Part shown: positions 8,208 to 28,692 of the stretch, piece after piece
Position numbering within the stretch: the stretch's first letter is position 1
Layout of the letters: the number at the start of each line of letters is the position of its first letter
NCBI GenBank assembly: GCA_029265435.1
Contig: JAJUJH010000011.1
Location: 1 to 34,515, forward strand
Reading direction: 5' to 3'
Length of the DNA stretch: 34,515 nucleotides
From: Clostridiales bacterium
Lineage (GTDB): Bacteria; Bacillota; Clostridia; Christensenellales; SZUA-584
Notes under the pieces: model-generated
Told to the model about the DNA's origin: nothing
The model's input: the letters and a program-made list of their open reading frames with translations, nothing else
Databases searched by the model: none
Position numbers and translations under genes: made by a program

Positions 8208-8912
8208 ATGAACGGCAATCAAAAAATGACCATGCCGATGCAGCCGTCCGCCGTCATTGACGCAACGGTGACCGCCGTGCCGCCGGGCCTTGGCGATACG
8301 GCCCCCGATTTTACGGCGATGACGACGCAAGGCGTGAAAAGCTTGTCCGAATACCGCGGCAAATGGGTGATCATGTTCAGTCATCCGGGCGATTTTACGC
8401 CTGTCTGCACCACGGAGTTCATTGCATTCGCGCAGCGCTATCAGGATTTCAAGGACAGAAACGCTGAACTGCTCGGCCTCTCTATCGATTCAAATGCTTC
8501 ACATATCGCGTGGCTCATCAACATATACCGCAATACCGGAATTGAGATACCGTTTCCCGTTATTGCCGACAGAGATATGGCGATATCAAGAATGTATGGA
8601 ATGATACAACCGGGCGTGAGCGGGACAGAAACCGTTCGCAACGTGTTCTATATTGACCCGAACGGCGTCATTCGAGCGAAACTGATCTATCCGCTGACAA
8701 ACGGGCGCAATATCGGAGAAATACTGCGTCTGCTGGATGCGCTGCAAACAACGGATCGAGAGAAGGTGGTAACGCCCGCAAACTGGCGGCCGGGATTTCC
8801 TACGGTTATACCACCGCCGAAGACGATGGACGCGGCGATGAAACGCATGGACTCGAGTGATAACTGTATGGATTGGTATCTGTGTTACAATCAGCCAAGG
8901 GAACTGACATAA
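8208..8912 (+). CDS. Peroxiredoxin (AhpC/TSA, Prx6-like)
   Basis: 234 aa; GDTAPDFTAMTTQGVKSLSEYRGKWVIMFSHPGDFTPVCTTEFIAFAQ. Confidence 0.92.
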   Translation: MNGNQKMTMPMQPSAVIDATVTAVPPGLGDTAPDFTAMTTQGVKSLSEYRGKWVIMFSHPGDFTPVCTTEFIAFAQRYQDFKDRNAELLGLSIDSNASHIAWLINIYRNTGIEIPFPVIADRDMAISRMYGMIQPGVSGTETVRNVFYIDPNGVIRAKLIYPLTNGRNIGEILRLLDALQTTDREKVVTPANWRPGFPTVIPPPKTMDAAMKRMDSSDNCMDWYLCYNQPRELT

Positions 8913-8922
8913 AGATGTCAGA

Positions 8923-8956
8923 GAAGCGCTTGACGGATGTCCGGCGCTTTTATTAT
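8923..8956 (+). terminator. Intrinsic terminator after the peroxiredoxin gene
   Basis: gaagcgcttgacggatgtccggcgcttttatta: AAGCGC/GCGCTT stem with nested CGGA/TCCG, then T-rich tract. Confidence 0.75.
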
Positions 8957-9316: not shown

Positions 9317-10207
9317 ATGGCAAGCATACATTTTCCGACAGATCATGAGGCTAAGCAGACTATTCTCGAAGTAGGCCGCAGAATGTACACAAAGAATTTT
9401 GTGGCTGCAAATGACGGGAATATCAGCTGCAAGGTTGATCATGACATCATTTGGACAACGCCCACGGGCGTTTCAAAGGGCTTCATGAGCGAGGATATGC
9501 TTGTTAAAATGCGGCTTGATGGCACGATTCTTTCGGCGGGTTCCTTAAAGCCTTCGTCTGAAGTGAAAATGCATATTAGAGTATACAAAGAAAACCCTGA
9601 GGTTATGGGAGTCACGCATGCGCATCCGCCCATCTGTACATCGTTTGCGATTGCAGGCATCGGCCTTGACCGGGCAATTTACCCAGAAGCGCTCGTGAAT
9701 CTTGGCACCGTGCCATGTGTACATTATGAAACGCCGGGATCTCAGGGAATCCCGGATTCTATCGCACCCTACTGCAAGGATTACAACGCCGTGCTGCTTG
9801 GAAATCATGGCGCGCTTTCGTGGGGAAAATCACTTATCGAAGCATTTTATCGTCTTGAATCAATGGAACATTATGCGATGGTGCTCATGTATACGGGCAA
9901 CATCATCGGCAAGGCCAATGTATTAAGCTGCGAACAAGTTCAGGAACTGCTCGATATCCGCAAGAGCCTGGGCATCCATGCGGGCGGCGTTCCGCCTTGT
10001 GCGGCCAAGCCCACGAATCTTAAAGACGTTGTGGCGCCACATTCTGCCATTGCTGCGGCGGCTGAAGTACGCAAGGAGCTTAAAACATATTCTCCGGGCG
10101 AAAAGGCTTGCGGTTGTGTGGCCTCACCGGTTTCTGAAAATGAGAACGGTGTCAGCGATATTGAGTTGATTACGCAGGCCGTGCTCAAACGCTTAAAAGA
10201 CATGTAG
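9317..10207 (+). CDS. Class II aldolase (FucA/Ald2 family) with C-terminal linker and candidate encapsulation peptide
   Basis: 296 aa; metal-binding THAHPP and LLGNHGALSWG; extra C-terminal helix DIELITQAVLKRLKDM. Confidence 0.9.
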   Translation: MASIHFPTDHEAKQTILEVGRRMYTKNFVAANDGNISCKVDHDIIWTTPTGVSKGFMSEDMLVKMRLDGTILSAGSLKPSSEVKMHIRVYKENPEVMGVTHAHPPICTSFAIAGIGLDRAIYPEALVNLGTVPCVHYETPGSQGIPDSIAPYCKDYNAVLLGNHGALSWGKSLIEAFYRLESMEHYAMVLMYTGNIIGKANVLSCEQVQELLDIRKSLGIHAGGVPPCAAKPTNLKDVVAPHSAIAAAAEVRKELKTYSPGEKACGCVASPVSENENGVSDIELITQAVLKRLKDM

Positions 10208-10261: not shown

Positions 10262-11593
10262 ATGAAAGCAGTTATTATCGGTGGTGTGGCCGCCGGCATG
10301 TCGGCCGCTTCCAAAATAAAACGCAATGATCCGACCGCTGAGGTAACCGTCTATGAAAAGGGCAATTTCCTTTCATACGGAGCCTGCGGGCTGCCGTATT
10401 TTGTGAGCGGCGAGAACCCTGATTATACCAAGATGATTGCGCGCACACGTGAGCAGTTCAGCAAAGCGGGCATTCGCACGTTTCTCAATCACGAGGTGCT
10501 TTCAATATCGCCCGAAGAAAAAAGTGTTACCGTAAAAAATACGGCAACCCAGGAGACGTTTAAAGACGGTTATGATTCTTTGTTGATCGCAACAGGCTGC
10601 ACAAGCGTCGTGCCTCCAATCCCGGGGATTGATAATGCGGGTGTATTTTATATAAAAACGCTGGAAGACGGTTTGCTGTTGCAAAAGGTGGCTTCCCATG
10701 AGTCTGTCCGTCGGTGTGTGATCATCGGCGGCGGTTATATCGGCATCGAAATGACGGAAGCGTTTTTACGGCTCGGCAAGGAAGTTACCGTCATTGAAGG
10801 GGCAAACCGTATTCTCTCGCCGTTTGAGCCGGAGTTTTCAGAAATGGCTGCCAAGGAACTGATTCAAAACGGCGCTCAAGTAAAAACCGGGGAACGCGTC
10901 ATATCCATCGAAGAGCAACGGACCCATCGTCTTGTTCGCACGAGCCACGGCGAATACCCGGCGGATATCATACTGATGTCGGTGGGCGTGATGCCCGCGA
11001 CGCAGTTCCTCAAAGACACAGGCATTCGAATGACAAAGAACGGCGCCATTATCGTTGACCGCGAAATGCGCACTTCTTTGCCCGGCATCTATGCCGCGGG
11101 CGATTGTGCGGTGACATATAACAGGATAATGGAAGAAGATTACTTTTTGCCGCTTGGCACCGTGGCTAACAAATGCGGGAGAATTGCGGGCGGCAATATG
11201 CTTGGTAAACATGAGAAATTTACGGGCGCTCTGGGAACAGCGGCCATCAAAGTCTGTGGCATTGAAATGGGGCGTACGGGTATGAGCGAAGCCGACGCTT
11301 TGCGTATGGGTATTGATTACCGGACAACCATGGTTACAACGTATAATCATCCGCCGTATTATCCGGGACAAACAGCCATTACAATTAAGCTGATTTATGA
11401 GAAGGGCACGCGCCGTTTGCTCGGGGCCTGCGCTGCCGGGCAGCACGGGGCTGTATTGCGTGTGGACATGTTCGCGATTGCGATACATGCAGGCTTGACA
11501 ACAAAAGAACTTGGCATGGTAGACTTGGCCTATGCGCCGCCTTTCGCCGGCGTTTGGGATGCGGTTCATATCGCCGCCAATGCGGCAAAGTGA
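10262..11593 (+). CDS. CoA-disulfide reductase / NADH oxidase-like FAD-dependent oxidoreductase
   Basis: 443 aa; MKAVIIGGVAAGMSAASKIKRNDP, redox Cys in LSYGACGLPYFVSGE, GIYAAGDCAVTYN. Confidence 0.9.
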   Translation: MKAVIIGGVAAGMSAASKIKRNDPTAEVTVYEKGNFLSYGACGLPYFVSGENPDYTKMIARTREQFSKAGIRTFLNHEVLSISPEEKSVTVKNTATQETFKDGYDSLLIATGCTSVVPPIPGIDNAGVFYIKTLEDGLLLQKVASHESVRRCVIIGGGYIGIEMTEAFLRLGKEVTVIEGANRILSPFEPEFSEMAAKELIQNGAQVKTGERVISIEEQRTHRLVRTSHGEYPADIILMSVGVMPATQFLKDTGIRMTKNGAIIVDREMRTSLPGIYAAGDCAVTYNRIMEEDYFLPLGTVANKCGRIAGGNMLGKHEKFTGALGTAAIKVCGIEMGRTGMSEADALRMGIDYRTTMVTTYNHPPYYPGQTAITIKLIYEKGTRRLLGACAAGQHGAVLRVDMFAIAIHAGLTTKELGMVDLAYAPPFAGVWDAVHIAANAAK

Positions 11594-11594
11594 G

Positions 11595-12398
11595 ATGGAC
11601 ATGAATAAGCTCGTCAATTTACATGAGGCAATTGCGACAATACCGGATGGTGCCGTGGTTGGTCTTGGCGGCAACACACTCAATCGTGCGCCCATGGCTG
11701 CCGTTTTTGAAATGGTCCGTCAGAAGAAAAAATCGCTCGCGCTTGTTAAAACAGCGGGCGCCATGGATATCGATATTTTGTGTCTCGCGGGATGCGTGAA
11801 GAGTGTAGATGCGGGCTTCATCAGCTATGAAAGCGAATATTCGCTGGCCCGGCATTACCGCGCAAGCGTTCAGAAAGGGCTTGTCAAAGCCAATGAGCAT
11901 GCATGTTACACGGTGATATCCGCCCTGCGTGCCGCCTCATACGGTATTCCTTTTATGCCGGTGCGTGGGCTTGTCACCAGCGATTTGATCGACGTGAATC
12001 CATACTTTAAGCGGATTACCGATCCGTTTACGGGAGATCCAGTTACGTTGGTATCGGCAATACGGCCGGACTATGCGATCCTTCATGTACATAAGGCGGA
12101 TATACAGGGCAATGCCCTCATTCTCGGCCCCAAATATGAAGATGTTCTCTTCTCACGGGCAGCCAAAAAGGTGATATTGACAGCTGAAGAAATCGTTGAT
12201 GAAGGGTTTTTTCGATGCAGCGAAACAAAGGCGGATATTCCCGGATTTCTGGTTGAAAGTGTCGTTCATGTGCCGCATGGCGCTGCGCCTTGCGCATGCC
12301 ACGGCGTATACGGTTTGAATCATGAATCCATTCGAAAGTTTCTAACGATAAAAAACGATAGCGAATTACCTCTGTACCTTGAGGTGTGCCATGTTTAG
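11595..12398 (+). CDS. CoA-transferase family subunit A (GctA-like)
   Basis: LHEAIATIPDGAVVGLGGNTLNRAPMAAVFEMVRQKKKSLALVKTAGAMDIDILCLAGCVKSVDAGFISYE. Start after 11593; ATG at 11595 or 11601. Confidence 0.82.
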   Translation: MDMNKLVNLHEAIATIPDGAVVGLGGNTLNRAPMAAVFEMVRQKKKSLALVKTAGAMDIDILCLAGCVKSVDAGFISYESEYSLARHYRASVQKGLVKANEHACYTVISALRAASYGIPFMPVRGLVTSDLIDVNPYFKRITDPFTGDPVTLVSAIRPDYAILHVHKADIQGNALILGPKYEDVLFSRAAKKVILTAEEIVDEGFFRCSETKADIPGFLVESVVHVPHGAAPCACHGVYGLNHESIRKFLTIKNDSELPLYLEVCHV

Positions 12399-13107
12399 AG
12401 TTTGCGACATCATGGTATGTGCCATGGCGAGGCTGATTAAAAACGGCGATACGGTGTTTCATGGCGTATCCTCCCATATGCCGATGATTGCCACGCTGCT
12501 GGCCAAAGCGACACATGCTCCGGACGCTGTTCATTTGAATATACCGGGTGGAGTTGACCCGAAGTCTCCTAAGCTTGTGTCGTTTACCAGCGCGGGCAGC
12601 GAGCTTTTTGAGACAGCCCCGGCTGTTTTTCCGCTGATGGATGTGTTTGATCTGTCGATGCGCGGGGGCCTTGATGTCGCTTTTTTAAGCGGTGTGCAGT
12701 TCGACAATGCAGGAACGGTAAACGCATCGGTAATAGGCGATTATTATTCGCCAAAGGTTCGGCTTCCCGGCGGTGCGGGCAGCGCCGTACTGATTCCGAC
12801 GGCCAAACGCGCAGTTATTTGGCGTACCAAGCACGACAGACGAACCTTTGTACAGAATGTTGACTTTATGACGGCGCGTGGCAACGTCAGCTTTGTTGTG
12901 ACACCGCTTTGTATTTTCGCAATGTATGAGGGTGAATTGATTTTGGACAGTATTCATCCCACATCAACGATCGAGGAAGTCGCGCAGAACACGGGGTTCC
13001 CCATCAGATACTTTGAGCTGAAAAGCACGCCTGCGCCGACCGATGAGGAATTGAGGCTGCTGCAGATGATTGATCCTCAGGATCTCAGGAACATAGAGTT
13101 CCGCTGA
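12391..13107 (+). CDS. CoA-transferase family subunit B (GctB-like), apparently lacking the catalytic Glu
   Basis: NGDTVFHGVSSHMPMIATLLAKATHAPDAVHLNIPGGVDPKSPK...FLSGVQFDNAGTVNASVIGDYYSPKVRLPGGAGSAVL...IWRTKHDRRTFVQNVDFMT, colinear with GctB. Confidence 0.8.
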   Translation: MFRVCDIMVCAMARLIKNGDTVFHGVSSHMPMIATLLAKATHAPDAVHLNIPGGVDPKSPKLVSFTSAGSELFETAPAVFPLMDVFDLSMRGGLDVAFLSGVQFDNAGTVNASVIGDYYSPKVRLPGGAGSAVLIPTAKRAVIWRTKHDRRTFVQNVDFMTARGNVSFVVTPLCIFAMYEGELILDSIHPTSTIEEVAQNTGFPIRYFELKSTPAPTDEELRLLQMIDPQDLRNIEFR

Positions 13108-13160: not shown

Positions 13161-14357
13161 ATGAAAAAGCTTTTGTATGTCCTGATTGCTGTTGCCATGA
13201 TGTTCACGTTGGCCGCATGCGGTACAACAACTCCGGCCGCGTCTGCCTCTGAATCGGCTGCGTCTTCGGCACCTGCTGAATCAGCTGAATCTTCGGCTCC
13301 CGCCGGTGACACCACCGCTGTGGCTGATCTGCTGAAAAAGTATATGCCGGATCAGATGGCTGACGGCAAAATCAAAGTTGCCGTTATCCGTAACTTGGCA
13401 GCGGGCGACCATACGCAGCAGTTCCTTGAAGGCTGCACATCCGAAGGCGAAGCGCTTGGTTTCACGGTTGATACATACGTCACTGACGGCGATAATGCAA
13501 AGTGCCAGGAAACGATCGCGCAGGTTATCCAGAAAGATTATGATGGTCTCATCCTGTCTCACGGCGAAGCCGGTTACACGTATGATTCCCTGCTTCCCGC
13601 TGTGGAAAAGGGCATGAAAGTCGTCACGTTCGACTCCGTCCCCTATAAAAACGGCGACCCGAATGGTGAGATTCTTGAGGGCGTAACCAGCACAGCTCAG
13701 GAAGATGCGAAACTGGCAGAGCTTTCTCTCGGTTCCATCGTCAGTCATTTCGATGAATCCAAACAGCCGATTAAGGTGATCCGTGCATGGATGGGCCCCG
13801 GAATCCCGCCGCTGGATCGTCGTCAGGTGGTCTATGACAAGTATGTGGCCGAAGGCAAAATACAAGAAGTTGCGCTGGTTGGGCCGGTTGACTTCTCCAA
13901 TGCGCGCGGCGGCACGCAGGATGCTCTGGCCGCTATTCTTCCGAAGTTCCCCGAGGGGACGGTTGATGCGATTTGGGGTTCCTATGACGAGCTCGCAAAG
14001 GGCTGCTTGCAGGCGCTTAATGATGCTGGCAGAACCGACATCAAGATCATGTCTATCGATATCTCCAACGATGATATCAATTTAATGCTCAAGAACTCGG
14101 ACGTATGGGTTTCCACTGCAGCGGTTGATCCCAAGCTTATCGGTATTGCGGATATGAGACTGCTGGCTGCAAAGTTTGCCGGCGAAGAAACACCTGACAC
14201 ATATAACCTTGACGCTCAGGGCGTTGACACAACACAGCTCAATTCTTCGATTAACATGACAAACATTGCGACCGTTGTAAATGGTTGGGGCCAGGAAAAA
14301 GGCGTGTTTGACAGCTATGCATGGATGGCTGAAATCAAAGCCGCTGTGAAAGGCTGA
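13161..14357 (+). CDS. Sugar ABC transporter substrate-binding lipoprotein (RbsB-like, CUT2 family)
   Basis: Signal peptide with lipobox LAACG; periplasmic-binding fold YDGLILSHGEAGYTYDSLLPAVEKGMKVVTFDS; followed by RbsA- and RbsC-like genes. Confidence 0.92.
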   Translation: MKKLLYVLIAVAMMFTLAACGTTTPAASASESAASSAPAESAESSAPAGDTTAVADLLKKYMPDQMADGKIKVAVIRNLAAGDHTQQFLEGCTSEGEALGFTVDTYVTDGDNAKCQETIAQVIQKDYDGLILSHGEAGYTYDSLLPAVEKGMKVVTFDSVPYKNGDPNGEILEGVTSTAQEDAKLAELSLGSIVSHFDESKQPIKVIRAWMGPGIPPLDRRQVVYDKYVAEGKIQEVALVGPVDFSNARGGTQDALAAILPKFPEGTVDAIWGSYDELAKGCLQALNDAGRTDIKIMSIDISNDDINLMLKNSDVWVSTAAVDPKLIGIADMRLLAAKFAGEETPDTYNLDAQGVDTTQLNSSINMTNIATVVNGWGQEKGVFDSYAWMAEIKAAVKG

Positions 14358-14412
14358 TCGCATATAACGATCAGCTCCGCTTTGAGTCCCCTCCGGTTTG
14401 TTGCCGGAGGGG
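14353..14412 (+). promoter_or_regulatory. Two consecutive intercistronic hairpins between binding-protein and ATPase genes
   Basis: GCTGATCG-catataa-CGATCAGC (14353-14375, includes the TGA stop) and CCCCTCCGG-tttgttg-CCGGAGGGG (14388-14412); no poly-T tract. Confidence 0.75.
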
Positions 14413-14481
14413 GCAAAAGCAAAAAATGAACGGTTAAGGGCTTTTGTGGTTAACGATTTTGATTTTGGGCAGGTGAATGGA

Positions 14482-16002
14482 ATGAGAGCAGCAAACGCAA
14501 AACTCTCAATGCGAGATATAAGTATCGAATTCCCCGGCGTCAAAGCGCTTTCAAATGTGAACTTTGATCTGGAGAGCGGTCAGATTCGTGCATTGATCGG
14601 GGCAAATGGCGCAGGCAAATCCACACTGATGAAAGTCTTGTCGGGTGTCAATTCCCATTACAGCGGGAAGATATATATTGATGACGAGGAATGTGAGATT
14701 CGTTCGCCGAAAGCTGCGAAAAATCTGGGTATAGAAATTGTATATCAGGAGGTCGATGTTGCGCTGGTGTCTAACCTGACAGTCGGGGAAAACATCATGC
14801 TTAATTCATTGGCCAACAAGATGGGGAAGAAACAGATTGTAAACTGGAATGATATAAGAAAAACAGCGAAAGAAACGCTGAAACGCCTCGGTATGGACAT
14901 TGATGTGAGAAAAATCGTTTCCGAGCTGTCTTTGGCGGAAAAACAAATGGTACTTATCGCACGGGCTGTGGTGGAGCAGTGTAAGTTTTTGATTCTTGAC
15001 GAGCCGACAGCACCGCTTTCCATTACCGAAACAGAGAATTTCTTTAAAATCATACGAAATTTGGCCAAGTCCGAGAACGTGGGGATTGTATTTATTTCCC
15101 ATAGGCTGGCTGAACTGTTTGAAATCTGCGAGCACATCACCATTATGAAAGACGGTATGGTGGTCAAAGATATGCCGATTACTTCGGACCTTACAATCAA
15201 TCAAATTGTTGAGTATATGCTGGGGCGGAAATTCGACGATAACTATCCCAAGCAGACTGTTGACATCGGGGATGTGCTTTTGGATGTCAGGAATCTGACA
15301 GAACGCAACCACAAGGTCGTCAATATCAATATGCAGGTGAAAAAAGGCGAAATCGTAGGGGTTTGCGGGTTGGTCGGCGCCGGCAAAACCGAACTGTGCA
15401 AAACGCTTTTCGGCGCATACCGTGCATGCTCAGGGGACATCTGCCTTAATGGCAAGAAGATTAACCCCAAGAATCCGACTCAGGCTGTTACACGAGGACT
15501 TGCGCTGGTTCCCGAAGAACGCCGCAAGGAAGGTGTTTTTGTGACGGATCCGCTGTACGCGAACATCACCGTTTCGTCGCTTAACAAATTTACAAATAAA
15601 ATTCGCTTTGTGAGTAAAAGCAAGCAGCGCACAGCCGCAAGAACCAAGATCAATGAACTTGGTATCAAAACCCCCAACGAGAATCAGGTGGTGGCTCTGC
15701 TATCAGGCGGTAATCAGCAGAAGGTGGTTGTCGGAAAATGGCTGGTCAGCGATTCTGAAATATACATTTTTGATGAACCGACAAAGGGCGTGGATGTCGG
15801 TGCGAAGAGAGACATCTTTCAGCTGATTGAAGGACTTGCCGCACAAGGCAAGGGTGTCATCTATGCATCCTGTGAATTTTCCGAAATTCTTGCCATCGCC
15901 GATCGGGTTTACGTATTGTTCGATGGTGAAATCGTCAAGGAAATGGATGTAAAGGACACAAACGAAAAAGAACTTTTATATTATTCAACGGGAGGCCGGT
16001 AA
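14482..16002 (+). CDS. Sugar ABC transporter ATP-binding protein (RbsA/MglA-like, two ATPase domains)
   Basis: Walker A GANGAGKST and GLVGAGKTE; LSLAEKQMVLIARAV and LSGGNQQKVVVGKWL signatures. Start chosen at MRAANAKLSMRDI. Confidence 0.93.
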   Translation: MRAANAKLSMRDISIEFPGVKALSNVNFDLESGQIRALIGANGAGKSTLMKVLSGVNSHYSGKIYIDDEECEIRSPKAAKNLGIEIVYQEVDVALVSNLTVGENIMLNSLANKMGKKQIVNWNDIRKTAKETLKRLGMDIDVRKIVSELSLAEKQMVLIARAVVEQCKFLILDEPTAPLSITETENFFKIIRNLAKSENVGIVFISHRLAELFEICEHITIMKDGMVVKDMPITSDLTINQIVEYMLGRKFDDNYPKQTVDIGDVLLDVRNLTERNHKVVNINMQVKKGEIVGVCGLVGAGKTELCKTLFGAYRACSGDICLNGKKINPKNPTQAVTRGLALVPEERRKEGVFVTDPLYANITVSSLNKFTNKIRFVSKSKQRTAARTKINELGIKTPNENQVVALLSGGNQQKVVVGKWLVSDSEIYIFDEPTKGVDVGAKRDIFQLIEGLAAQGKGVIYASCEFSEILAIADRVYVLFDGEIVKEMDVKDTNEKELLYYSTGGR

Positions 16003-16003
16003 C

Positions 16004-17002
16004 ATGAATAATTCGACGAATACCGCAAAAAAGTCTTCGATTATGGACTTTACAACCAAATGGGGAACGCTGTTAACCATTGCGGTGATGCTGGTTGTAT
16101 TCTCTTTGACAATGCCGACATTTATGACAGCTTCAAACATGATCACCATCATCAGAGCCGTCTGCATAGTGACCGTTATTGCTACGGGGATGACCATATC
16201 TTTAACCGTTAACGGCCTTGACTTGTCGGTGGGGTCTACGGCGACATTTGCGAACACGGTTTTAATGACATTTTTCGTGTGGTTTTCCTTCGGCAGCTCC
16301 ACGGGCGGCATGCTGCTGTCGATATTATTAACCATACTGATTTGCACAGTGATTGCCGGCATCAATGCCTTGCTGATTGTCAAGCTGAGAATTCCGGATA
16401 TGCTCGCGACATTGTCAACGATGTTCATGTTTGAAGGCGTGGCGATGACATACGCAGGCGGCGGCGCCATAAACGAAAACATGCTGCGGCCTGACGGGAC
16501 AACCGCCACAGGTGAGGTTCCGGATCTTTTCAGGGACATCGGCAAAGAACCTTGGATCATCATAGTGATGCTCGTGCTCGTATTCCTTGTATTCTTATTT
16601 TTGACTTATACCAAGCATGGCCGTTATATGTACGCTGTCGGCGGCAATCCCGAAGCGGCCAGACTCTCTGGTATTAATGTCAACAAGTACCGTGCGCTGG
16701 CCTATCTGATGTCAACGATACTCGCATCCATCGGCGGTATGCTGATCGGTGCGCGCGTTGGCAACGCACAAATCAACTCGGGCGCAGCCTATTTAATGGG
16801 ATCGGTTGCTGCGGCGCATATCGGTATGTCGGTGGCGGGAGCGGGTAAACCGAACGCACTTGGCACACTCGCCGGTGCAATATTGATCGGTGTTTTGGAG
16901 AACGGGCTTATCATGGCGTCTGTCCCGTATTATGCGGTCAACATCTTTAAAGGCGCTGTGCTCGCAATTGCGCTGGCTCTGAATTATGCCCGTAAAAAAT
17001 AA
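16004..17002 (+). CDS. Sugar ABC transporter permease (RbsC-like)
   Basis: 332 aa; VNGLDLSVGSTATFANTV, YAVGGNPEAARLSGINVNKYR, NGLIMASVPYYAVNIFKGAVLAIALALNY. Confidence 0.93.
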   Translation: MNNSTNTAKKSSIMDFTTKWGTLLTIAVMLVVFSLTMPTFMTASNMITIIRAVCIVTVIATGMTISLTVNGLDLSVGSTATFANTVLMTFFVWFSFGSSTGGMLLSILLTILICTVIAGINALLIVKLRIPDMLATLSTMFMFEGVAMTYAGGGAINENMLRPDGTTATGEVPDLFRDIGKEPWIIIVMLVLVFLVFLFLTYTKHGRYMYAVGGNPEAARLSGINVNKYRALAYLMSTILASIGGMLIGARVGNAQINSGAAYLMGSVAAAHIGMSVAGAGKPNALGTLAGAILIGVLENGLIMASVPYYAVNIFKGAVLAIALALNYARKK

Positions 17003-17019: not shown

Positions 17020-18231
17020 ATGTCGCGTTTTGACAAATACTTTTTGATGAATGAATCGGACGTTATTGAATACGTCAAAGAGAAGCTTGATTTCTTTGAA
17101 GCCGGCGCCAACCTCACGGTCAAGGAAATCGGCGACGGCAATCTTAATTACGTTTTCCGTGTTGTTGAAGAGGGCACGGATAAATCTGTGATTATAAAGC
17201 AGGCTGGAGAAGCGCTTCGTATCTCCGCCGAAATGAAGGTGTCCACGGACAGAAACCGTATTGAAGCTGAAATACTGCAGATTCAGGATCGGTATGCGCC
17301 CGGCCTCGTACCGAAGATTTATAACTACGATACCGTTATGTGTGCATGTGCCATGGAGGACCTTTCGGATCATGAGCTGATGCGCTACGCGCTGATGAAG
17401 CATAAGATATTCCCTCGGTTTGCGGATGATATCTCCACATATCTCGTCAACACTCTGTTAAAAACATCGGATGTGGTGATGGATCACAAGGCGAAAAAGG
17501 CGTTGGTGAAAAGCTTTATTAATCCGGAACTCTGTGAAATCACGGAAGACCTCGTACTGACGGAACCCTATAATGACGTCAATAAACGGAATCTGGTTTT
17601 TGAGAAAAATGCCGATTTTGTGAAAGAGCAGCTTTATAACGACAAAGCGCTGCACCTTGAGGTTGCCAAAATCAAATTTGAATTTATGAATAACGCACAG
17701 GCGCTGATTCACGGCGATCTGCATACGGGTTCGATATTTGTGAAGGAAAACAGCACGCGTGTGTTTGACCCCGAGTTTGCGTTTTATGGACCGATGGGCT
17801 ACGACATCGGAAATGTAATGGCGAATCTCTTTTTTGCCTGGGACAACGGCAACGCGGCGGGTGCGTCAGCGTTCTGTGATTGGGTGCTCAAGGCTGCGGC
17901 GGACACCATCGATCTTTTCAACAAGAAGTTCCTTGAGTGTTTTGATGAATACGCTACGGATGTTATGGCGAAGACAGATGGATTCAAGCAGCATTATCTC
18001 AACACTGTGCTGTCAGACACCGCGGCATATGCAGGTACAGAGCTTATCCGAAGAACAGTCGGCATGGCGCAGGTGAAAGACGTGACAACGATAGCGGATG
18101 CAGAAAAAAGGGCATACGCTGAGCGCGTGAACATTCTTTGCGCGAAAGACTTCATTATGAACCGCAAGGCGTTTAAAACAGGCGCTGATTTTGTGGCAGC
18201 GCTGAAACGGGCTGCGCAGGCTGCCCAATAA
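17020..18231 (+). CDS. 5-methylthioribose kinase family protein (MtnK-like; candidate 5-deoxypentose kinase)
   Basis: 403 aa; LTVKEIGDGNLNYVFRVVEEGTDKSVIIKQA, LIHGDLHTGSIFV, RVFDPEFAFYGPMGYDIGNVMANLFFAW. Confidence 0.9.
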   Translation: MSRFDKYFLMNESDVIEYVKEKLDFFEAGANLTVKEIGDGNLNYVFRVVEEGTDKSVIIKQAGEALRISAEMKVSTDRNRIEAEILQIQDRYAPGLVPKIYNYDTVMCACAMEDLSDHELMRYALMKHKIFPRFADDISTYLVNTLLKTSDVVMDHKAKKALVKSFINPELCEITEDLVLTEPYNDVNKRNLVFEKNADFVKEQLYNDKALHLEVAKIKFEFMNNAQALIHGDLHTGSIFVKENSTRVFDPEFAFYGPMGYDIGNVMANLFFAWDNGNAAGASAFCDWVLKAAADTIDLFNKKFLECFDEYATDVMAKTDGFKQHYLNTVLSDTAAYAGTELIRRTVGMAQVKDVTTIADAEKRAYAERVNILCAKDFIMNRKAFKTGADFVAALKRAAQAAQ

Positions 18232-18243
18232 CGGGAGGATATC

Positions 18244-19326
18244 ATGGCGGAAAACATTATGAACTACGAGACAGTAACATTGAACGAGGAAAAGGCCACT
18301 CTGGATATCATCGATCAGACACAGCTCCCCAATCACGTGGAAATTCTGTCTTTGGCGGATATTAAGGATATTTGGGATGCCATTTACCTGCTAAAAGTTC
18401 GTGGGGCACCGGCAATCGGCGTTGCAGCGGCTATTGGATTATATGTTGTTGCAAAAGATATTGATGCGGACAGTTACGACGCCTTTTATGCGGAATTCAA
18501 GAAGGCAAAGGATTATCTCGCATCCGCACGGCCGACGGCTGTTAACCTTTTCTGGGCGCTCGACCGCATGGAAAACGTCGTGCTGATGAATAAAGATAAA
18601 GCTGTTTCTGATTTAAAACAGTTGCTTCACGATGAAGCGATCGCGATAAAAGAAGAGGATATTTGGGTTTGCAGGTCTATCGGAGAATATGGTCTATCTC
18701 TGATTAAAGACGGCGACGGGATATTAACACACTGCAATGCCGGACAATTGGCGACCGCAAAATACGGAACGGCTCTTGCGCCGATTCATCTTGGCGTCGA
18801 AAAGGGCTATAAATTTAAGGTATTTACGGACGAGACGCGTCCGCTGTTGCAGGGCGCACGGTTAAGCGCTTTTGAACTGTACTCCCACGGCATTGATACC
18901 ACGGTGATTTGTGACAATATGGCATCTCAAGTGATGAAGAACGGCTGGGTTCAGGCGGTTTTTGTCGGGTGCGACCGTGTGGCGGCCAACGGTGACGCTT
19001 GCAACAAGATCGGAACCTCGGGTGTTGCGATACTTGCAAAATACTATGGCATTCCGTTCTATGTCTGCGCGCCGACATCAACGATTGATATGGAAACAAA
19101 GCAAGGCGAGGATATTCCGATTGAGGAGCGTCCTGCGAAGGAAGTCACCGACATGTGGTACACAAAACGCATGGCTCCCGAAGGTGTGAATGTATACAAT
19201 CCCGCTTTCGATTTCGCAGATAACGAACTGATTACAGCAATCATTACGGAGTATGGTATTGCGCGCCCGCCGTACAAACAGAGCTTGAAGGAGATATTTG
19301 AAAGAAAGGCAAATGCACACAAATAG
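18244..19326 (+). CDS. S-methyl-5-thioribose-1-phosphate isomerase family protein (MtnA-like; candidate 5-deoxyribose-1-P isomerase)
   Basis: 360 aa; [92 protein letters not shown]. Confidence 0.93.
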
Positions 19327-19383: not shown

Positions 19384-20214
19384 ATGGACGAAAGAGCTTT
19401 AAGGATAGCTGTGGAACGCGTTGTGTTGACGGAACTGGCGAAAAGCGGTGAACGGATCGTGCCGGTCAATTCTTCCAACAGGCACATTCATTTGAGCCAA
19501 AAGGATGTTGACGCGCTTTTCGGAACGGGCTATCAGCTTAAAAAAATGCGTGATCTCGCTCAGCCGGGACAATACGCATGTGAAGAGCATGTGACGCTTG
19601 AAACGCCAAAGGGTAAGCTGACGCTTCGGGTTGTCGGGCCGGTACGCAAAGAAACGCAGGTTGAGCTTTCTTTAACCGAGATGATTAAGCTTGGCATACC
19701 GCCTATGGTGCGCATGTCGGGCGATTCGGCCGGAACGCCGGGCGGTATTATCAGCAACGGAGACAGGAAGGTGACGCTGGAACGAGGCATAATGGTCGCG
19801 GCGCGTCATCTGCACATGACGGATGCGCAGGCGAAAGCATACGGGCTTCAAAACGGCGATACCGTATCGTTGCTTGCCGAGGGTATCCGCGAGACGGTAT
19901 TTAACAACGTGATTGTCCGGTGCGGTGAGGGGCACGAACTCGAAGCGCATATCGACAAGGACGAGGCCAATGCGGCGGGGCTGAAGGACGGTGCATTGTG
20001 CCGGATTTTCAAACAGACGCAGCAGCCTTCTTTGTTGTCACAATTTCAAACGAAGGCATTGACAGCAACAGATAAAAGGCAGCGCAGACTGATTACGGAA
20101 GATGATGTGAAGACGGCCCACGCCGAAGGGCGCACATCAATACCGCATGAAAAGGATGATATTATCACACCGCTTGCAAGAGATGCGGCATGGGAACTCG
20201 GCATAGAGCTTTGA
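19384..20214 (+). CDS. pduL: Phosphate propanoyltransferase (PduL) with N-terminal helical extension
   Basis: 276 aa; VNSSNRHIHLSQKDVDALFG, VGPVRKETQVELS, ARHLHMTDAQAKAYGLQNGD; N-terminal helix DERALRIAVERVVLTEL. Confidence 0.93.
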   Translation: MDERALRIAVERVVLTELAKSGERIVPVNSSNRHIHLSQKDVDALFGTGYQLKKMRDLAQPGQYACEEHVTLETPKGKLTLRVVGPVRKETQVELSLTEMIKLGIPPMVRMSGDSAGTPGGIISNGDRKVTLERGIMVAARHLHMTDAQAKAYGLQNGDTVSLLAEGIRETVFNNVIVRCGEGHELEAHIDKDEANAAGLKDGALCRIFKQTQQPSLLSQFQTKALTATDKRQRRLITEDDVKTAHAEGRTSIPHEKDDIITPLARDAAWELGIEL

Positions 20215-20226
20215 TTAGGAGAAGGT

Positions 20227-20529
20227 ATGATTTTAGGCAGAGTCAAAGGAAACGTCGTCAGCACCACCAAATCGGATAAGCTCTCGGGGTACAAGCTGCT
20301 CATCGTTGTACCGATCAATATCGATACGTTTGAGGAACAGGGAGCGCCGATTGTCAGCGTGGATACGGTGGGCGCGGGCGAAGACGAGGTTGTGATGGTA
20401 GTGGGCGGAAGCTCGTCACGCCAAACGGCTGCCACTGAAGGACGCCCGGTGGATTCCACCATTGTCGCAATTATCGACAGCGTGGATTTTAAAGGCAAAC
20501 GAATATTCAGCAAGACTGAACAGGAATAA
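20227..20529 (+). CDS. BMC-P (EutN/CcmL) shell vertex protein
   Basis: 100 aa; MILGRVKGNVVSTTKSDKLSGYKLLIVVPI...VDTVGAGEDEVVMVVGGSSSRQ...DSTIVAIIDSVDF. Confidence 0.93.
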   Translation: MILGRVKGNVVSTTKSDKLSGYKLLIVVPINIDTFEEQGAPIVSVDTVGAGEDEVVMVVGGSSSRQTAATEGRPVDSTIVAIIDSVDFKGKRIFSKTEQE

Positions 20530-20542: not shown

Positions 20543-21988
20543 ATGGCAATGACAGAACAGCAGATTCGTCAGATCACCGAAGATATTGTCCGTGAGCTGT
20601 CAGGCAAATTGCATATCAATCCAGCGAACGCATCGACGTCTGCAAATCCCGTTCACATAGCGGGAGCCACATCACGCTGGCTGTGCGATACAGCTGAAGA
20701 AGCGGTGAGCAATGCCAAGGCCGCACAAAAGCAGCTGGCTGAAATGTCGCTCGAACAGCGCGGCGCGCTTATCGCAGCGATGCGAAAAGCGGGTATTGAT
20801 AATGCGGAGTACTTAGCAAAGCTCGCCAATGAGGAAACGGGCTACGGACGCGTGGCTGACAAGGTGGCAAAGAATCTGCTGGCGGCAAAAAAAACGCCGG
20901 GCATTGAGGATTTAAAAACAAACGCATTTACGGGCGACAACGGCATGACGATCATTGAGCAGGCGCCGTTTGGCGTGATCGGGTCCATCACACCTTCCAC
21001 GAATCCGACGTCCACGGTGATCAACAACAGCATCACAATGATCGCGGCAGGCAACGCCGTGGTGTTCAATCCGCATCCGGCCGCGAAGCATGCATCTCAG
21101 GAAGCAATGCGGCTCATGAACGAAGCGATCGTATCGGCAGGCGGCCCGGCCACACTGATTACAACTGTGAAAGAACCCACGCTTGAAAGCGGGCAAGCCA
21201 TAATGACGCATAAGGATATTCCGCTTCTGTCAATTACAGGCGGCGAAGCGGTTGTGGCAGTGGCGATGAAAACGGGAAAAAAAGTGATTGCCGCAGGTCC
21301 GGGGAATCCGCCCGTAATCGTAGACGATACGGCTGACATAAAAAATGCGGCGCAGAAGATCGTGGACGGTGCAAGCTTTGACAATAATGTGCTCTGTATC
21401 GCGGAAAAAGAAGTATTCGTTTTTGCATCTGTCGCGGATGAGCTGATGACTGAGATGGAAAAACACGGCGCTTACCGCATCAGAAACACGGACATCGAAA
21501 AGGTGCTTGCCACCACACTCATCAATAAGGACGGCAAATATGTGATCAATCGTCAATATGTCGGCCGCGATGCAGCCGTGATACTGCGCGACAGCGGTGT
21601 GGCTTTTACAGGCAATCCTCGGCTGATTATCGCGGAGGTGGATAAGAACCATCCATTCATCATGACGGAAATGCTGATGCCCGTGCTCGGTATCGTACGC
21701 GTGAGCTGCATTGAAGAAGCGGTGGAAGAAGCTTGCCGCGCAGAGCAGGATTGCAAACATTCTGCCATGATTCATTCGACGAATGTCCATCATCTTTCGC
21801 TCGCGGCGCGTCGGCTTAACACCACGATTTTTGTGAAAAATGCGTCTTCGCTCGCGGGCCTTGGTTTCGGCGGAGAAGGCTGCACCACGCTCACGATTGC
21901 GACCCCAACCGGTGAAGGCATCACGACGCCGCGGTCATTTACGCGCCAGCGGCGCTGTGTACTCGCGGGTGACTTTCGAATCGTTTAA
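20543..21988 (+). CDS. CoA-acylating aldehyde dehydrogenase (PduP/EutE-like) with N-terminal encapsulation-type helix
   Basis: 481 aa; N-terminal EQQIRQITEDIVRELSGKL; catalytic Cys region GASFDNNVLCIAEKEVFVF; PFGVIGSITPSTNPTSTVINNSI. Confidence 0.94.
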   Translation: MAMTEQQIRQITEDIVRELSGKLHINPANASTSANPVHIAGATSRWLCDTAEEAVSNAKAAQKQLAEMSLEQRGALIAAMRKAGIDNAEYLAKLANEETGYGRVADKVAKNLLAAKKTPGIEDLKTNAFTGDNGMTIIEQAPFGVIGSITPSTNPTSTVINNSITMIAAGNAVVFNPHPAAKHASQEAMRLMNEAIVSAGGPATLITTVKEPTLESGQAIMTHKDIPLLSITGGEAVVAVAMKTGKKVIAAGPGNPPVIVDDTADIKNAAQKIVDGASFDNNVLCIAEKEVFVFASVADELMTEMEKHGAYRIRNTDIEKVLATTLINKDGKYVINRQYVGRDAAVILRDSGVAFTGNPRLIIAEVDKNHPFIMTEMLMPVLGIVRVSCIEEAVEEACRAEQDCKHSAMIHSTNVHHLSLAARRLNTTIFVKNASSLAGLGFGGEGCTTLTIATPTGEGITTPRSFTRQRRCVLAGDFRIV

Positions 21989-21997: not shown

Positions 21998-23320
21998 GTG
22001 ATGGACATTGTTGAAAAGATAAAAAACGCGGGGGTTGTCGGCGCAGGCGGAGCGGGCTTTCCGACACATATAAAGCTTAGCTGCAAAGCGGCCGTTGTGA
22101 TTGCGAACGGTGCGGAATGCGAGCCGTTGCTGCGTGTGGATCAAACATTGATGCAAATGCAGGCCGAACGCATTATTGTCGGTTTGGAAACGGCAATGGC
22201 GGCGGTAAGCGCCAAGCTCGGTGTGATTACGACAAAATCACACTATCACGAGGCCGTCGAAGCGCTTAAGCGTGCGATTGGGGCAAAAAAGAATATCCGT
22301 CTGCATCTGATGAAGAGCTACTATCCAGCGGGAGATGAGAAGTCACTGATATATGATATCACGGGTCATGTGGTGCCGAGTGCAAAACTGCCGCAGGATG
22401 TGAACTGCGTGGTCGTGAATGTGGCGACACTGGTCAATATTGCCGATGCCTTGGAAGATCAACCGGTTGTTGATAAATACCTGACAATCGGCGGCGACGT
22501 TGAAAAACCGGTGACAGTACGTGTTCCGATAGGTATTCCGGCAAAGCAGCTTCTCAAATTGACGGGCTTTAAAGGCAGCGAACAGGATTATGCGATGATA
22601 ATCGGCGGCCCATGCATGGGCCGTATCGAGGAAAACTGGAATGTGCCGGTAACCAAAACCATGAGCGGCATTCTCGTTTTTAAACGGTCGCATCCGCTTG
22701 TTGTGCAACAGTCAATCCCGCTCTCGAAGCAGGCAAAGCTGGCCCAGGCCGTTTGCTGCCAGTGCAGCCAGTGTACGCAAATGTGCCCGCGCAATGCACT
22801 GGGACTGAACGTTCAGCCGCACAAGGTGATGAGAGCGGCGTCGACGGGCGATGCGCGGCTGATCGGCGATGTGAACGGTTTGCTGGCCTGTTCCGGCTGC
22901 GGTCTATGTACAAATTATGCATGTAACTTTGGGCTTCGGCCATCGGCGATGATGACGGCATTCAAGACGAAGATGCTGAAAGCGGGGGTACGTCCGCAAG
23001 CGGAAAAGCGAATTATACCCGATTCGGCGCTGGCCTTGAAGCGCGTGCCGACAGCCCGGCTGGTTGCGCGTATGGGGCTCAGTGACTATGATCTTCCTGC
23101 TCCGCTGATTGATAACGTGGTTTCGCCGAAGAGTGTAACCATACCAATGCAGATGCATGCGGGAAAACCCGCTGAAACGACGGTGGCTGTGGGCGATACT
23201 GTGGCGCGGGGCAGTTTGATCGGCAGAATACCCGAAAATGCAATAGGCGCGGCGGTACATGCAAGCATCAGCGGAACGGTCACAAAAATCGCAAACGGGT
23301 GCATTGAGATTAAGGCTTAG
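21998..23320 (+). CDS. pduS: PduS/RnfC-like BMC-associated flavin/Fe-S oxidoreductase
   Basis: 440 aa; GVVGAGGAGFPTHIKLSCKAAVVIANGAECEPLL; two Fe-S motifs CCQCSQCTQMCPRNA and CSGCGLCTNYACNFG. GTG (21998) or ATG (22001) start. Confidence 0.92.
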   Translation: MMDIVEKIKNAGVVGAGGAGFPTHIKLSCKAAVVIANGAECEPLLRVDQTLMQMQAERIIVGLETAMAAVSAKLGVITTKSHYHEAVEALKRAIGAKKNIRLHLMKSYYPAGDEKSLIYDITGHVVPSAKLPQDVNCVVVNVATLVNIADALEDQPVVDKYLTIGGDVEKPVTVRVPIGIPAKQLLKLTGFKGSEQDYAMIIGGPCMGRIEENWNVPVTKTMSGILVFKRSHPLVVQQSIPLSKQAKLAQAVCCQCSQCTQMCPRNALGLNVQPHKVMRAASTGDARLIGDVNGLLACSGCGLCTNYACNFGLRPSAMMTAFKTKMLKAGVRPQAEKRIIPDSALALKRVPTARLVARMGLSDYDLPAPLIDNVVSPKSVTIPMQMHAGKPAETTVAVGDTVARGSLIGRIPENAIGAAVHASISGTVTKIANGCIEIKA

Positions 23321-23333
23321 GAGGAACAGGCAA

Positions 23334-23879
23334 ATGAACGCACTTGGCATGGTCGAAGTGCTGAGTATCCCGGTTGGGGTTCTCGCAGGAGACGCAATGC
23401 TGAAAACCGCACAGGTGTCGCTCGTGACGGCGCAGACAGTATGCGCGGGGAAATATATTGTGATAGTAAGCGGAGATGTGGCAACTGTAAAGGCGGCTGT
23501 GGATGCCGGCGTGGAGATTGCAGAGACGACGCTTGTGGACAGTCTGATGATACCGAATGTGGATGATCGCGTGATTGCCGCGATGGCGGGCGCATGCGAA
23601 GCCGAGAATGTCCAGGCTGTGGGCATCATGGAAACCTTCTCGCTCGCATCGGCCGTTTATGCCGCAGACGCTGCGGTGAAAGCGGCGGCTGTTGAGCTTA
23701 TCGAGGTTCGTCTTGGACGCGGCATGGGGGGTAAATCGTTTGTGATTGTGACGGGTGATGTGGCGGCGGTGGAAGCCGCTGTAGCGGCAGCTGAATGCTG
23801 TGAACAAACGGAAGGCATGATGGCGAGATCCGTCGTGATACCTTCTCCTCATATGGATATGATCCGTGCACTGCTCTAG
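23334..23879 (+). CDS. BMC-T (PduT-like) tandem-domain shell protein
   Basis: 181 aa from ATG 23334 (RBS GGAGGA); two BMC domains MNALGMVEVLSIPVGVLAGDAMLKTAQVSLV and AVGIMETFSLASAVYAADAAVKAAAVEL; pore loop TVCAGKYIVIVSGDV. Confidence 0.92.
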   Translation: MNALGMVEVLSIPVGVLAGDAMLKTAQVSLVTAQTVCAGKYIVIVSGDVATVKAAVDAGVEIAETTLVDSLMIPNVDDRVIAAMAGACEAENVQAVGIMETFSLASAVYAADAAVKAAAVELIEVRLGRGMGGKSFVIVTGDVAAVEAAVAAAECCEQTEGMMARSVVIPSPHMDMIRALL

Positions 23880-23942
23880 CGGGCCCGGAATGATCATATT
23901 AATGCTGGTACAATATTGAGAGGATTGCTAAGGAGACAAAAA

Positions 23943-24218
23943 ATGAAAGAAGCATTGGGAATGGTTGAAACAAAGGGGCTTGTGTGTGCGATTGAAGCGG
24001 CGGACGCCATGGTGAAAGCGGCCAATGTGACGCTGATCGGCAAAGAAATGATTGGATCGGGCCTTGTGACGGTGATGGTACGCGGGGATGTCGGCGCTGT
24101 GAAGGCATCTGTGGAAGCGGGTGCTGCGGCGGCAAAGCGCGTCGGCGAACTGGTTAGCGTGCATGTGATTCCGCGTCCGCACAGCGATGTGGAAAGCATC
24201 CTGCCCCAGAGCAAATAA
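23943..24218 (+). CDS. BMC-H (PduA/EutM-like) shell protein, copy 1
   Basis: 91 aa; [80 protein letters not shown]. Confidence 0.96.
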
Positions 24219-24220: not shown

Positions 24221-24493
24221 ATGTTTATCGGCAGAATCGAAGGCACGGTCGTGTCAACAATCAAAGATCCTGCGCTTGTGGGTGTCAAGCTTTTGTTGGT
24301 ACGCCTGATAGAGAACGACAAGCCGACAAAATTGATTGTAGCGGGAGATGCGACACGGCAGGCTGGGCTAAATGATCTTGTCACGCTGATCAGCGCGAAA
24401 GAAGCTTCGCTGATGTTCCGAGGGATTTTACCGCCCTGCGATGTGGCGATTACGGGATTTATCGATGATTGCAATCTTGCACAAGAACATTAA
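24221..24493 (+). CDS. BMC-P (EutN/CcmL) shell vertex protein, second
   Basis: 90 aa; MFIGRIEGTVVSTIKDPALVGVKLLLVRLI...DATRQAGLNDLVTLI...CDVAITGFIDD. Confidence 0.9.
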   Translation: MFIGRIEGTVVSTIKDPALVGVKLLLVRLIENDKPTKLIVAGDATRQAGLNDLVTLISAKEASLMFRGILPPCDVAITGFIDDCNLAQEH

Positions 24494-24517: not shown

Positions 24518-24796
24518 ATGGAAAAACAGGCATTGGGTATGGTTGAAACGAAAGGTCTTGTCGGCGCGATTGAAGCGGCAGATGCGATGGTGAAAGCGGC
24601 CAACGTCACACTGCTCGGCAAGGAGCGCATCGGTTCGGGTCTTGTGACAGTGATGGTGCGCGGGGATGTCGGCGCTGTGAAGGCATCTGTGGAAGCGGGT
24701 GCTGCGGCGGCAAAGCGCGTGGGCGAGTTGGTGAGTGTGCATGTGATTCCGAGACCGCATGAGGATGTTGAAAAAATACTGCCGTCTGTCGGCTAG
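24518..24796 (+). CDS. BMC-H (PduA/EutM-like) shell protein, copy 2
   Basis: 92 aa; [88 protein letters not shown]. Confidence 0.96.
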
Positions 24797-24805: not shown

Positions 24806-25093
24806 GTGAAACTCGCAAGAGTGGTGGGCAACATTGTGTCCACGGTCAAAGAACAGACGCATGAAGGTTATAAACTCATGCTGGTTCAATATATCGATGC
24901 AAAGGGCGAACCGGACGGACCGAGACTCATCGCATTTGATTGCGCGCATGTCGGTATCGGAGATCTTGTAATTGTCAATACGGACGGCGGCGCTGCAAAA
25001 ATGCTGCTGGATGACGAAGATATTATCTGCGATTTGACGATTTGCGGAGTTGTGGATCATTATACGCTCAATGATAAAAACATAAAGGGCTAG
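24806..25093 (+). CDS. BMC-P (EutN/CcmL) shell vertex protein, third
   Basis: 95 aa, GTG start; MKLARVVGNIVSTVKEQTHEGYKLMLVQYID...DLTICGVVDHY. Confidence 0.92.
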   Translation: MKLARVVGNIVSTVKEQTHEGYKLMLVQYIDAKGEPDGPRLIAFDCAHVGIGDLVIVNTDGGAAKMLLDDEDIICDLTICGVVDHYTLNDKNIKG

Positions 25094-25118: not shown

Positions 25119-25544
25119 ATGCTTAAAGGAATTTCTTCAAAACTTTCTCCTGATCTGCTAAAAGTCATTGCAGAAATGGGACATGGTGATGAGCTTGTGA
25201 TCGGCGACTGCAACTTTCCCGCCGCATCGATGGGTAAACGCTGCGTTCGGGCGGACGGACTTAACGGTACGGATGTGCTTGATGCTGTGTTGTCCTTGTT
25301 TCCGCTTGATACATTTGTGGATGCACCGGTGGCGCTGATGCGGGTGATGCCCGGAACCGTTGACGGTGACCCTTTGATTTGGAACGAGTATAAAGCCATC
25401 ATAGAAAAATATGAACCGGGCACAAAAATCGAGCAAATTGACCGATTTGATTTTTATGAACGGGCAAAAAACGCATATGCCACTGTGGCCACAGCGGAAC
25501 GTGCTCTGTATGCCTGCATCATCATTAAGAAAGGCGTTTTGTAA
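25119..25544 (+). CDS. RbsD/FucU-family sugar mutarotase
   Basis: 141 aa; MLKGISSKLSPDLLKVIAEMGHGDELVIGDCNFPA...SLFPLDTFVDAPVALM...RFDFYERAKNAYATVATAERALYACIIIKKGV. Confidence 0.9.
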   Translation: MLKGISSKLSPDLLKVIAEMGHGDELVIGDCNFPAASMGKRCVRADGLNGTDVLDAVLSLFPLDTFVDAPVALMRVMPGTVDGDPLIWNEYKAIIEKYEPGTKIEQIDRFDFYERAKNAYATVATAERALYACIIIKKGVL

Positions 25545-25582
25545 ACCGGATATTTGTGTATCGACTATGTAAGGAGACAAGC

Positions 25583-26599: not shown

Positions 26600-26611
26600 A
26601 GGGAGCGGGTA

Positions 26612-27241
26612 ATGAAAGCTGATGATTTCAAGGCGCTGCTTGCATACTGGGCCGACGTGATGAAAGAAAACCGTGATTATTTAATTGACCTTGACAGTGT
26701 GATGGGCGACGGAGACTTGGGCCTCACGATGAGCGACGGCTTTAAAGCCGCAAGCGAAGCCGTAAGGGACTGTGATGAACCGGATATCGGCAAGCTCGCT
26801 TATCTCGCGGGCAAAGCGATGTCCACCGCGGTTCCGTCCACGATGGGCACGCTCATGGCGGCCGGCTTTATGGCTGCGGGCAGGGCGCTCAAAGGTATTG
26901 TCGAGCTTGACATTGGCGGAACTGCAACGTTTTTTGAGGCTTATCTCGAAGGCGTGAAAAACCGGGGGAAGGCTGAGATTGGCGATAAAACATTTTTGGA
27001 CGGAATGTATCCTGCCGCGATGCAGTTGAAGAATGACGCTGCGGCAGGCACGGATTTGACTGAAGCCGCATTAAAAGCGGCGGGCGTGGCACATGAGGCG
27101 TTCCTTTTAACAAAGGGTATGCTCGCAAAGCATGGGCGCGCGGCAGCCCGAGGAGAAAAATCGCGCGAATTGCTCGACCCGGGTGCGGCGGTTGCTGATT
27201 TAATAATGAAAGGATATGCCGATTTCATCACGAAACGGTAA
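26612..27241 (+). CDS. Dihydroxyacetone kinase DhaL-family (ATP-binding) subunit
   Basis: 209 aa; DLDSVMGDGDLGLTMSDGF, GKAMSTAVPSTMGTLMAAGFMAAGRAL, DKTFLDGMYPA. Confidence 0.9.
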   Translation: MKADDFKALLAYWADVMKENRDYLIDLDSVMGDGDLGLTMSDGFKAASEAVRDCDEPDIGKLAYLAGKAMSTAVPSTMGTLMAAGFMAAGRALKGIVELDIGGTATFFEAYLEGVKNRGKAEIGDKTFLDGMYPAAMQLKNDAAAGTDLTEAALKAAGVAHEAFLLTKGMLAKHGRAAARGEKSRELLDPGAAVADLIMKGYADFITKR

Positions 27242-28255: not shown

Positions 28256-28305
28256 AGGCTTTATTGTGTGTGGAATACCGATATCTATAAGTGCAGTCAA
28301 CGTCA

Positions 28306-28625: not shown

Positions 28626-28659
28626 CAACAGCCAAGGAAACTGAAATAAAGGTGTCTGA

Positions 28660-28692
28660 GAAGCGCTTGACGGATGTCCGGCGCTTTTATTT
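28660..28692 (+). terminator. Intrinsic terminator, duplicate of the one at 8923-8956
   Basis: gaagcgcttgacggatgtccggcgcttttattta, same stem as after the intact peroxiredoxin gene. Confidence 0.75.

Follow-up and report, generated by a model that had tools for sequence, protein, structure and literature searches.

A C-terminal encapsulation-peptide-like helix on a class II sugar-phosphate aldolase encoded in a microcompartment locus of a Clostridiales bacterium

The window analysed here is a stretch of 34,515 nucleotides from a Clostridiales bacterium (contig JAJUJH010000011.1), and all genes of the locus described in the following lie on its forward strand. At 9317-10207 a class II sugar-phosphate aldolase of the FucA/DrdA/YgbL fold is encoded, which has 296 amino acids and a C-terminal extension and was recognised by its open reading frame, by PF00596 and by Foldseek. 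Directly downstream lies a gene for a flavoprotein of the CoA-disulfide reductase family (10262-11593; NF007123, 547.7 bits, cutoff 458), as is the case in many related loci. It is followed by an alpha-like (11532-12398) and a beta-like CoA-transferase subunit (12379-13107), both matching PF01144, and by an ABC sugar transporter that comprises an RbsB-like substrate-binding protein (13161-14357; PF13407), an ATPase (14398-16002), which was named by its sequence and by the position of its reading frame between the genes for binding protein and permease, and a ribose-type permease (16004-17002; NF007067, 153 bits, which is under the cutoff of 398). Then come a kinase of the S-methyl-5-thioribose/5-deoxyribose (MtnK/DrdK) type (17020-18231; TIGR01767, 427.9 bits, cutoff 275) and an isomerase of the S-methyl-5-thioribose-1-phosphate (MtnA/DrdI) type (18244-19326; TIGR00512, 411.9 bits, cutoff 279).

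The second half of the locus encodes a PduL phosphotransacylase (19384-20214), in which PF06130 begins at residue 27 after an N-terminal extension of 26 residues, a EutN/CcmL shell pentamer protein (20227-20529; PF03319), a CoA-acylating aldehyde dehydrogenase of the PduP/EutE type (20543-21988; NF011927, 643 bits, cutoff 403), a PduS-type RnfC-like Fe-S flavoprotein (21998-23320; PF01512 and PF13375) and a PduT-type trimeric shell protein (23259-23879) with two PF00936 domains, a TIGR02526 score below cutoff and a CAGKY pore motif, a motif described for Fe-S PduT (PMC6325248). Further shell genes code for a BMC-H protein (23916-24218; PF00936), a EutN protein (24221-24493; PF03319), a second BMC-H protein (24518-24796; PF00936), which is an 84% DNA repeat of the first, and a EutN-like protein (24806-25093), so named because it resembles the locus's other EutN proteins. 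An RbsD/FucU sugar mutarotase (25119-25544; PF05025), a DhaK-type (25556-26599; TIGR02363, 388.9 bits, under the cutoff of 406) and a DhaL-type kinase subunit (26612-27241; PF02734) complete the gene run. Thus, BMC-H and EutN shell proteins, an acylating aldehyde dehydrogenase and a phosphotransacylase, the gene set of a metabolosome, are found in one locus. No alcohol dehydrogenase that would recycle NAD turned up in the examined genes of the locus, which has a PduS instead. DhaK and DhaL occur without DhaM in the window (25556-27241) and in its relatives. PduL has about 75 additional C-terminal residues past its PTAC domain, with weak similarity to a Eut protein of unknown function.

A peroxiredoxin gene is located just before the microcompartment locus (8208-8954) and a 96%-identical partial copy just after it (28303-28691), so that direct repeats stand on both sides of the locus. 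Shorter peroxiredoxin fragments lie further out (2195-2243 and 30282-30327), and the repeats are possibly an island boundary or debris of gene duplication. A reading frame at 5208-5888 matches 2-hydroxyacid dehydrogenases (PF02826) and looks truncated at its start, since its match to the family is confined to the C-terminal portion (GhrA from position 94). The same genome contains two further microcompartment loci (L015 on G000:C223 and L016 on G000:C150), each with a DeoC-type aldolase carrying an N-terminal encapsulation peptide (EP).

In the aldolase, Pfam Aldolase_II (PF00596) covers residues 15-189 (7e-46), and the folded catalytic core extends over residues 1-239 (9317-10033), as judged by AlphaFold2 confidence and by the end point of relatives without a tail. 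The nearest solved structures are those of YgbL, DrdA and FucA, found by Foldseek as 6voq, 6btg (DrdA with DHAP) and the 1fua series with a TM score (target) of about 0.9; DrdA with bound DHAP ranks third, and the alignment stops at about residue 221. Glu82, His101, His103 and His164 are invariant among 72 relatives; by analogy to Glu73, His92, His94 and His155 of FucA, Glu82 is expected to be the catalytic residue and the three histidines are expected to be metal ligands. None of the NCBIfam aldolase models listed (FucA, OtnC, MtnB and others) scored above its cut-off, the best being NF043034 with 112.9 against 250 bits. Since all of these models stay below cut-off, the assignment of a substrate rests on the neighbouring genes.

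The original prediction had drawn attention to a C-terminal helix of this protein resembling an EP. An AlphaFold2 model, built with 72 natural relatives, indeed gave a FucA-fold core with pLDDT values above 90 as far as about residue 230, a disordered linker of about 40 residues (240-278; 10034-10150) with values of 43-54 and below 50 at residues 262-276, and a confidently predicted amphipathic terminal helix (residues 279-295, pLDDT about 85). The linker, which differs in length and sequence among relatives, contains ASPVSENENG and the protein terminates in DIELITQAVLKRLKDM, both as originally quoted. The predicted EP helix comprises residues 279-296 (10151-10204). The tail is thus present, but the interval 10085-10207 first given for it is too short; the addition starts at about residue 240 (nucleotide 10034).

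To score the helix, 19 EPs belonging to aldehyde dehydrogenases, PduL, DeoC and a EutQ-like protein, none of them from an aldolase of this kind, were combined into a matrix of 12 positions, with a background drawn from the collected loci. The 12-mer IELITQAVLKRL (residues 282-293; 10160-10195) scored 22.2 bits, a value that no background sequence reached, be it one of 178,949 12-mers or one of 558 C-termini (maximum 8.4), and that was not attained in 20,000 shuffles; after removal of the window's own aldehyde dehydrogenase EP from the matrix it amounted to 22.4 bits. The matrix was restricted to protein termini because a few internal helices score fairly high (16.9 in the ABC ATPase), and the threshold for calling a tail, 7 bits, was chosen after inspection of the data. 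Matrix score and predicted helix both bear out the EP-like character of the C-terminus. The only other good match in the locus was the N-terminus of the aldehyde dehydrogenase, IRQITEDIVREL (20564-20599), with 17.5 bits when excluded from training. An EP on MtnK or MtnA was rejected, the termini in the window scoring at most 5.5 bits and below 0 bits, respectively, and with the same matrix the termini of both proteins were without EP in all 29 shell-linked loci each and also in shell-less loci. A canonical EP on PduL was rejected as well (N-terminal score 1.4 bits); its N-terminal extension is amphipathic by eye and non-canonical by the matrix.

Orthologues were then collected from 297 genomes of the order, 80 loci of named genomes and 52 loci of the class retrieved by means of a GRM5/PVM-like aldolase. 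Loci on truncated contigs and one ambiguous locus (L229) were excluded, which left 152 loci with usable context for the association counts. All 66 relatives with nearby shell genes carried the tail; of the 86 loci without nearby shell genes, 69 were tail-less and 17 tailed. Fisher's test gave p = 3e-19 for the first 107 loci, which are relatives and not independent; in independent pairs on supported branches 4-5 were concordant and none opposite, with a median p of 0.06 that falls short of significance. The closest comparison is with aldolases of Selenomonas, which are 70-71% identical, adjoin MtnA and nest with moderate support in the window's tail-bearing clade, where their tail-bearing neighbours have shells. 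These proteins end at about residue 239 and the genome has no PF00936 gene; the tail is lost in shell-less Selenomonas within the window's own clade. The pattern recurs in the clade of GRM5/PVM-like aldolases (40-47% identity). Two exceptions were found: in L229 shell genes are close by but the tail is non-canonical, with a score of 4.2, and L015, the other microcompartment locus of the same genome mentioned above, has a second class II aldolase without a tail. Since relatives of about 70% identity are tail-less and the tail tracks shell genes, it is an addition linked to microcompartments, which agrees with what had been predicted for it. A C-terminal helix could also serve the assembly of the aldolase oligomer or the closure of the active site, with no relation to shells; the C-terminal residues of FucA do sit near the active site of the adjacent subunit. 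This is a very improbable explanation here, because the core is intact in the tail-less relatives of about 70% identity, the linker is disordered and variable in length, and the helix matches the EPs of unrelated enzymes and follows the shell genes.

An EP-like tail had been expected to be confined to microcompartment aldolases; in part it was not, as shown by the 17 loci without nearby shells and by several genomes without PF00936. The latter are G031, G303, G719, G260, G543 and G481. G260 is only 72% complete; G031 is 99% complete in one contig and has a EutN-like fusion beside MtnA, and G543 and G481 are near-complete genomes of one genus. Of the remaining tail-bearing genomes that were checked, most contain shell genes at some position. 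In Bacillales, distant shells were rejected as cognate: four of six such loci have no matching aldehyde dehydrogenase and lie amid unrelated purine-type genes. In L168-L171, Bacillales shell genes stand beside genes resembling purine catabolism, with no match for an aldehyde dehydrogenase; by eye, from their sequence, they may be taken to resemble the xanthine-linked BUF type, of which BUF1 has been described (PMC8156839). In the Christensenella-like loci L058, L059 and L060, the gene just upstream of MtnA and an EP-tailed aldolase codes for a EutN-like protein that is extended by a long additional C-terminal region and matches only positions 1-59 of the EutN profile; G031, a genome without PF00936, has such a protein, too.

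Because EP-like tails persist in genomes without PF00936, the tail alone does not prove encapsulation. Therefore, it marks microcompartment ancestry or association and not encapsulation in every genome. Between species of Bacillales whose loci have no shell genes nearby, identity amounts to about 60% in the helix and about 22% in the linker, with a pN/pS of 0.35, so that selection seems to maintain the helix there. A possible reason is that EPs condense on their own (PMC12339742), and one may go further and regard the helix primarily as a self-association tag that builds enzyme condensates, with the shell being optional and the tail functional without one. The formation of trimers and condensates by EPs (PMC12339742), the two near-complete genomes of one genus that kept the tail without any PF00936 gene and the apparent maintenance of the Bacillales helix speak for this. 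We nevertheless consider it unlikely for the aldolase studied here, since the tail was present in every one of the shell-linked loci and absent from most shell-less relatives, the window locus has a full set of shell genes, and most other tail-bearing genomes possess shell genes, though in several Bacillales at unrelated loci.

The tail also has a feature that the original prediction had not mentioned, namely three cysteines, Cys228, Cys265 and Cys267. Cys228 (9998-10000) is part of GGxPxC, a motif that opens the tail and, among the 43 shell-linked tails of the first set, stands straight after the aldolase core in 32; Cys265-Gly-Cys267 (10109-10117) is a linker motif present as CGC, CxC or CxxC in 27 of these 43, in a single one of 12 tails lacking nearby shell genes and in none of 52 tail-less ends. 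All 43 have at least one cysteine, and cysteine makes up 129 of their 2,655 residues (4.9%), whereas the remaining genes of the loci have 1.5% and the N-terminal 55 residues of their aldehyde dehydrogenases 1.2%. Over the combined set, every one of the 66 shell-linked tails had a cysteine, as did 10 of the 17 tails with no shell genes nearby and 4 of the 69 tail-less ends. The helix is kept and cysteine is missing in five of the seven Bacillales tails that have no nearby shells, and likewise in the two tails of the shell-less genus. The association was noticed in the data and not predicted, the thresholds for testing it were set afterwards, and the independent-pair test on tail-bearing rows had only about three informative pairs. 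In the first count all 31 tails with PduS had at least three cysteines; PduS was rejected as a predictor of the linker cysteines on finding one-cysteine tails beside PduS in G058 and G305 in the wider context. The cysteines are perhaps a second, shell-associated element that is redox- or metal-active or binds aldehyde. A more far-reaching combination, which we put forward tentatively and as a whole hold to be rather doubtful, is that the linker cysteines have a function separate from the EP, namely a redox, metal or aldehyde-thiol site that would be useful only in the shell and lost with it, that the helix is a condensation tag able to act free of a shell, and that the locus is a microcompartment DHAP shunt whose 5-deoxy sugars would come from by-products of radical-SAM enzymes.

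EPs are known to be amphipathic helices, about 18 residues long, that are attached to a protein terminus through a variable linker, condense cargo and bind the shell (PMC12339742, PMC11157265). The aldolase tail is similar to the EPs of PduP, PduD and PduL described there, with an amphipathic helix of 15-20 residues and a poorly conserved linker, but those are N-terminal, whereas the EP of the aldolase is C-terminal and its linker has cysteines. C-terminal EPs on class II aldolases of PF00596 have already been published for ACI loci (PMC8217296). Like the window, these have such an aldolase in a microcompartment locus; unlike it, they are reported only in Acidobacteria, have a BMC-P triplet and a hydroxyacid dehydrogenase and no MtnK/MtnA is reported, and linker cysteines are not described for their aldolase. 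Fuculose-phosphate aldolases are encapsulated in GRM5 and PVM or PVM-like shells (PMC3557285, PMC4207490, PMC6325248), where, as in our model for the window, a PF00596 aldolase yields DHAP and an aldehyde within the shell. The published pathway leads from fuculose or rhamnulose phosphate to lactaldehyde, whereas the window locus has enzymes of the MtnK/MtnA type, and the aldolases are about 40-47% identical. Related aldolases of Clostridia (L063-L072 and L204-L255) have EP tails and cysteine-bearing linkers as well. The loci L256-L260 of related genomes end with four EutN-type genes after a LacI-type regulator; this BMC-P-rich arrangement is absent from the window. In SPU (PMC8217296, PMC4207490), with DeoC and RpiB, a sugar-phosphate aldolase provides acetaldehyde for an acylating aldehyde dehydrogenase, as in our model, but the aldolase is a class I enzyme of the DeoC type.

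The MtnK- and MtnA-type enzymes of the window, together with its aldolase, also correspond to the DHAP shunt for disposal of 5-deoxyribose, DrdK-DrdI-DrdA (PMC6079011, PMC10986504, PMC12632272), in which an MtnK-type, an MtnA-type and a FucA-fold enzyme likewise occur together and of which the DrdA structures 6btd and 6btg are among the closest folds to the window aldolase. These papers mention no microcompartment, and the solved DrdA chain has no EP tail and about 27% identity to the window aldolase. The open literature that was searched yielded neither a microcompartment with a kinase-isomerase-aldolase set of the MtnK/MtnA type nor any mention of cysteines in the tail or linker; published supplementary locus tables may already list the locus as PVM-like or MIC. 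A tailed, encapsulated class II aldolase is hence a known kind, and as far as the open literature goes the MtnK/MtnA setting and the cysteine signature are new.

We propose that the aldolase is, very probably, a core cargo of a metabolosome resembling the DHAP shunt, with the C-terminal helix as its EP and with cleavage inside the shell. What the data show is the sequence of the tail, the predicted helix and disordered linker, the tie to shell genes and the enzymes without EP; encapsulation itself, the substrate, the passage through the shell and the role of the cysteines we infer. In the simplest scheme, 5-deoxyribose or 5-methylthioribose would be taken up; an ABC sugar transporter and an RbsD/FucU mutarotase are encoded in the same gene run as MtnK and MtnA. 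The MtnK-type kinase and the MtnA-type isomerase, both cytosolic, would produce 5-deoxyribulose 1-phosphate (or the 5-methylthio compound), and their lack of an EP is, as far as sequence can tell, consistent with a location outside the shell. The ketose 1-phosphate would then pass into the shell. That it is the sugar phosphate which crosses, as had been suggested at the outset, we likewise infer; the same model has been proposed for the GRM5/PVM aldolases (PMC6325248). By its flexible linker the helix would bring the aldolase together with the rest of the EP-bearing cargo, in this locus the aldehyde dehydrogenase, and fasten it to the shell's inner face, a placing of the aldolase that is supported by the evidence on the tail. 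There the ketose 1-phosphate would be cleaved to DHAP and acetaldehyde (or methylthioacetaldehyde). The restriction of EPs to aldolase and aldehyde dehydrogenase would fit a release of the aldehyde inside the shell. DHAP would exit and the aldehyde would be retained, and aldehyde dehydrogenase and PduL would convert the trapped aldehyde via acyl-CoA to acyl-phosphate, while PduS and the CAGKY-bearing PduT might move electrons across the shell. Because DHAP is already a product of this route, DhaK and DhaL may phosphorylate another ketose at C1 and so feed the same aldolase.

The cysteine signature makes it cheap to test sequences for class II aldolases of the encapsulated kind, and in this sample it is better than the EP at separating shell-linked from shell-less EP tails. 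The EP tails found without shells are natural test cases for EPs as shell-free condensation tags, an idea tested to date in engineered constructs (PMC12339742). If the proposed model is right, the aldehyde-releasing step of a salvage-type kinase-isomerase-aldolase pathway would be placed inside a protein shell, and such a shell-enclosed cleavage could be what lets anaerobes use 5-deoxy sugars and escape damage by acetaldehyde.
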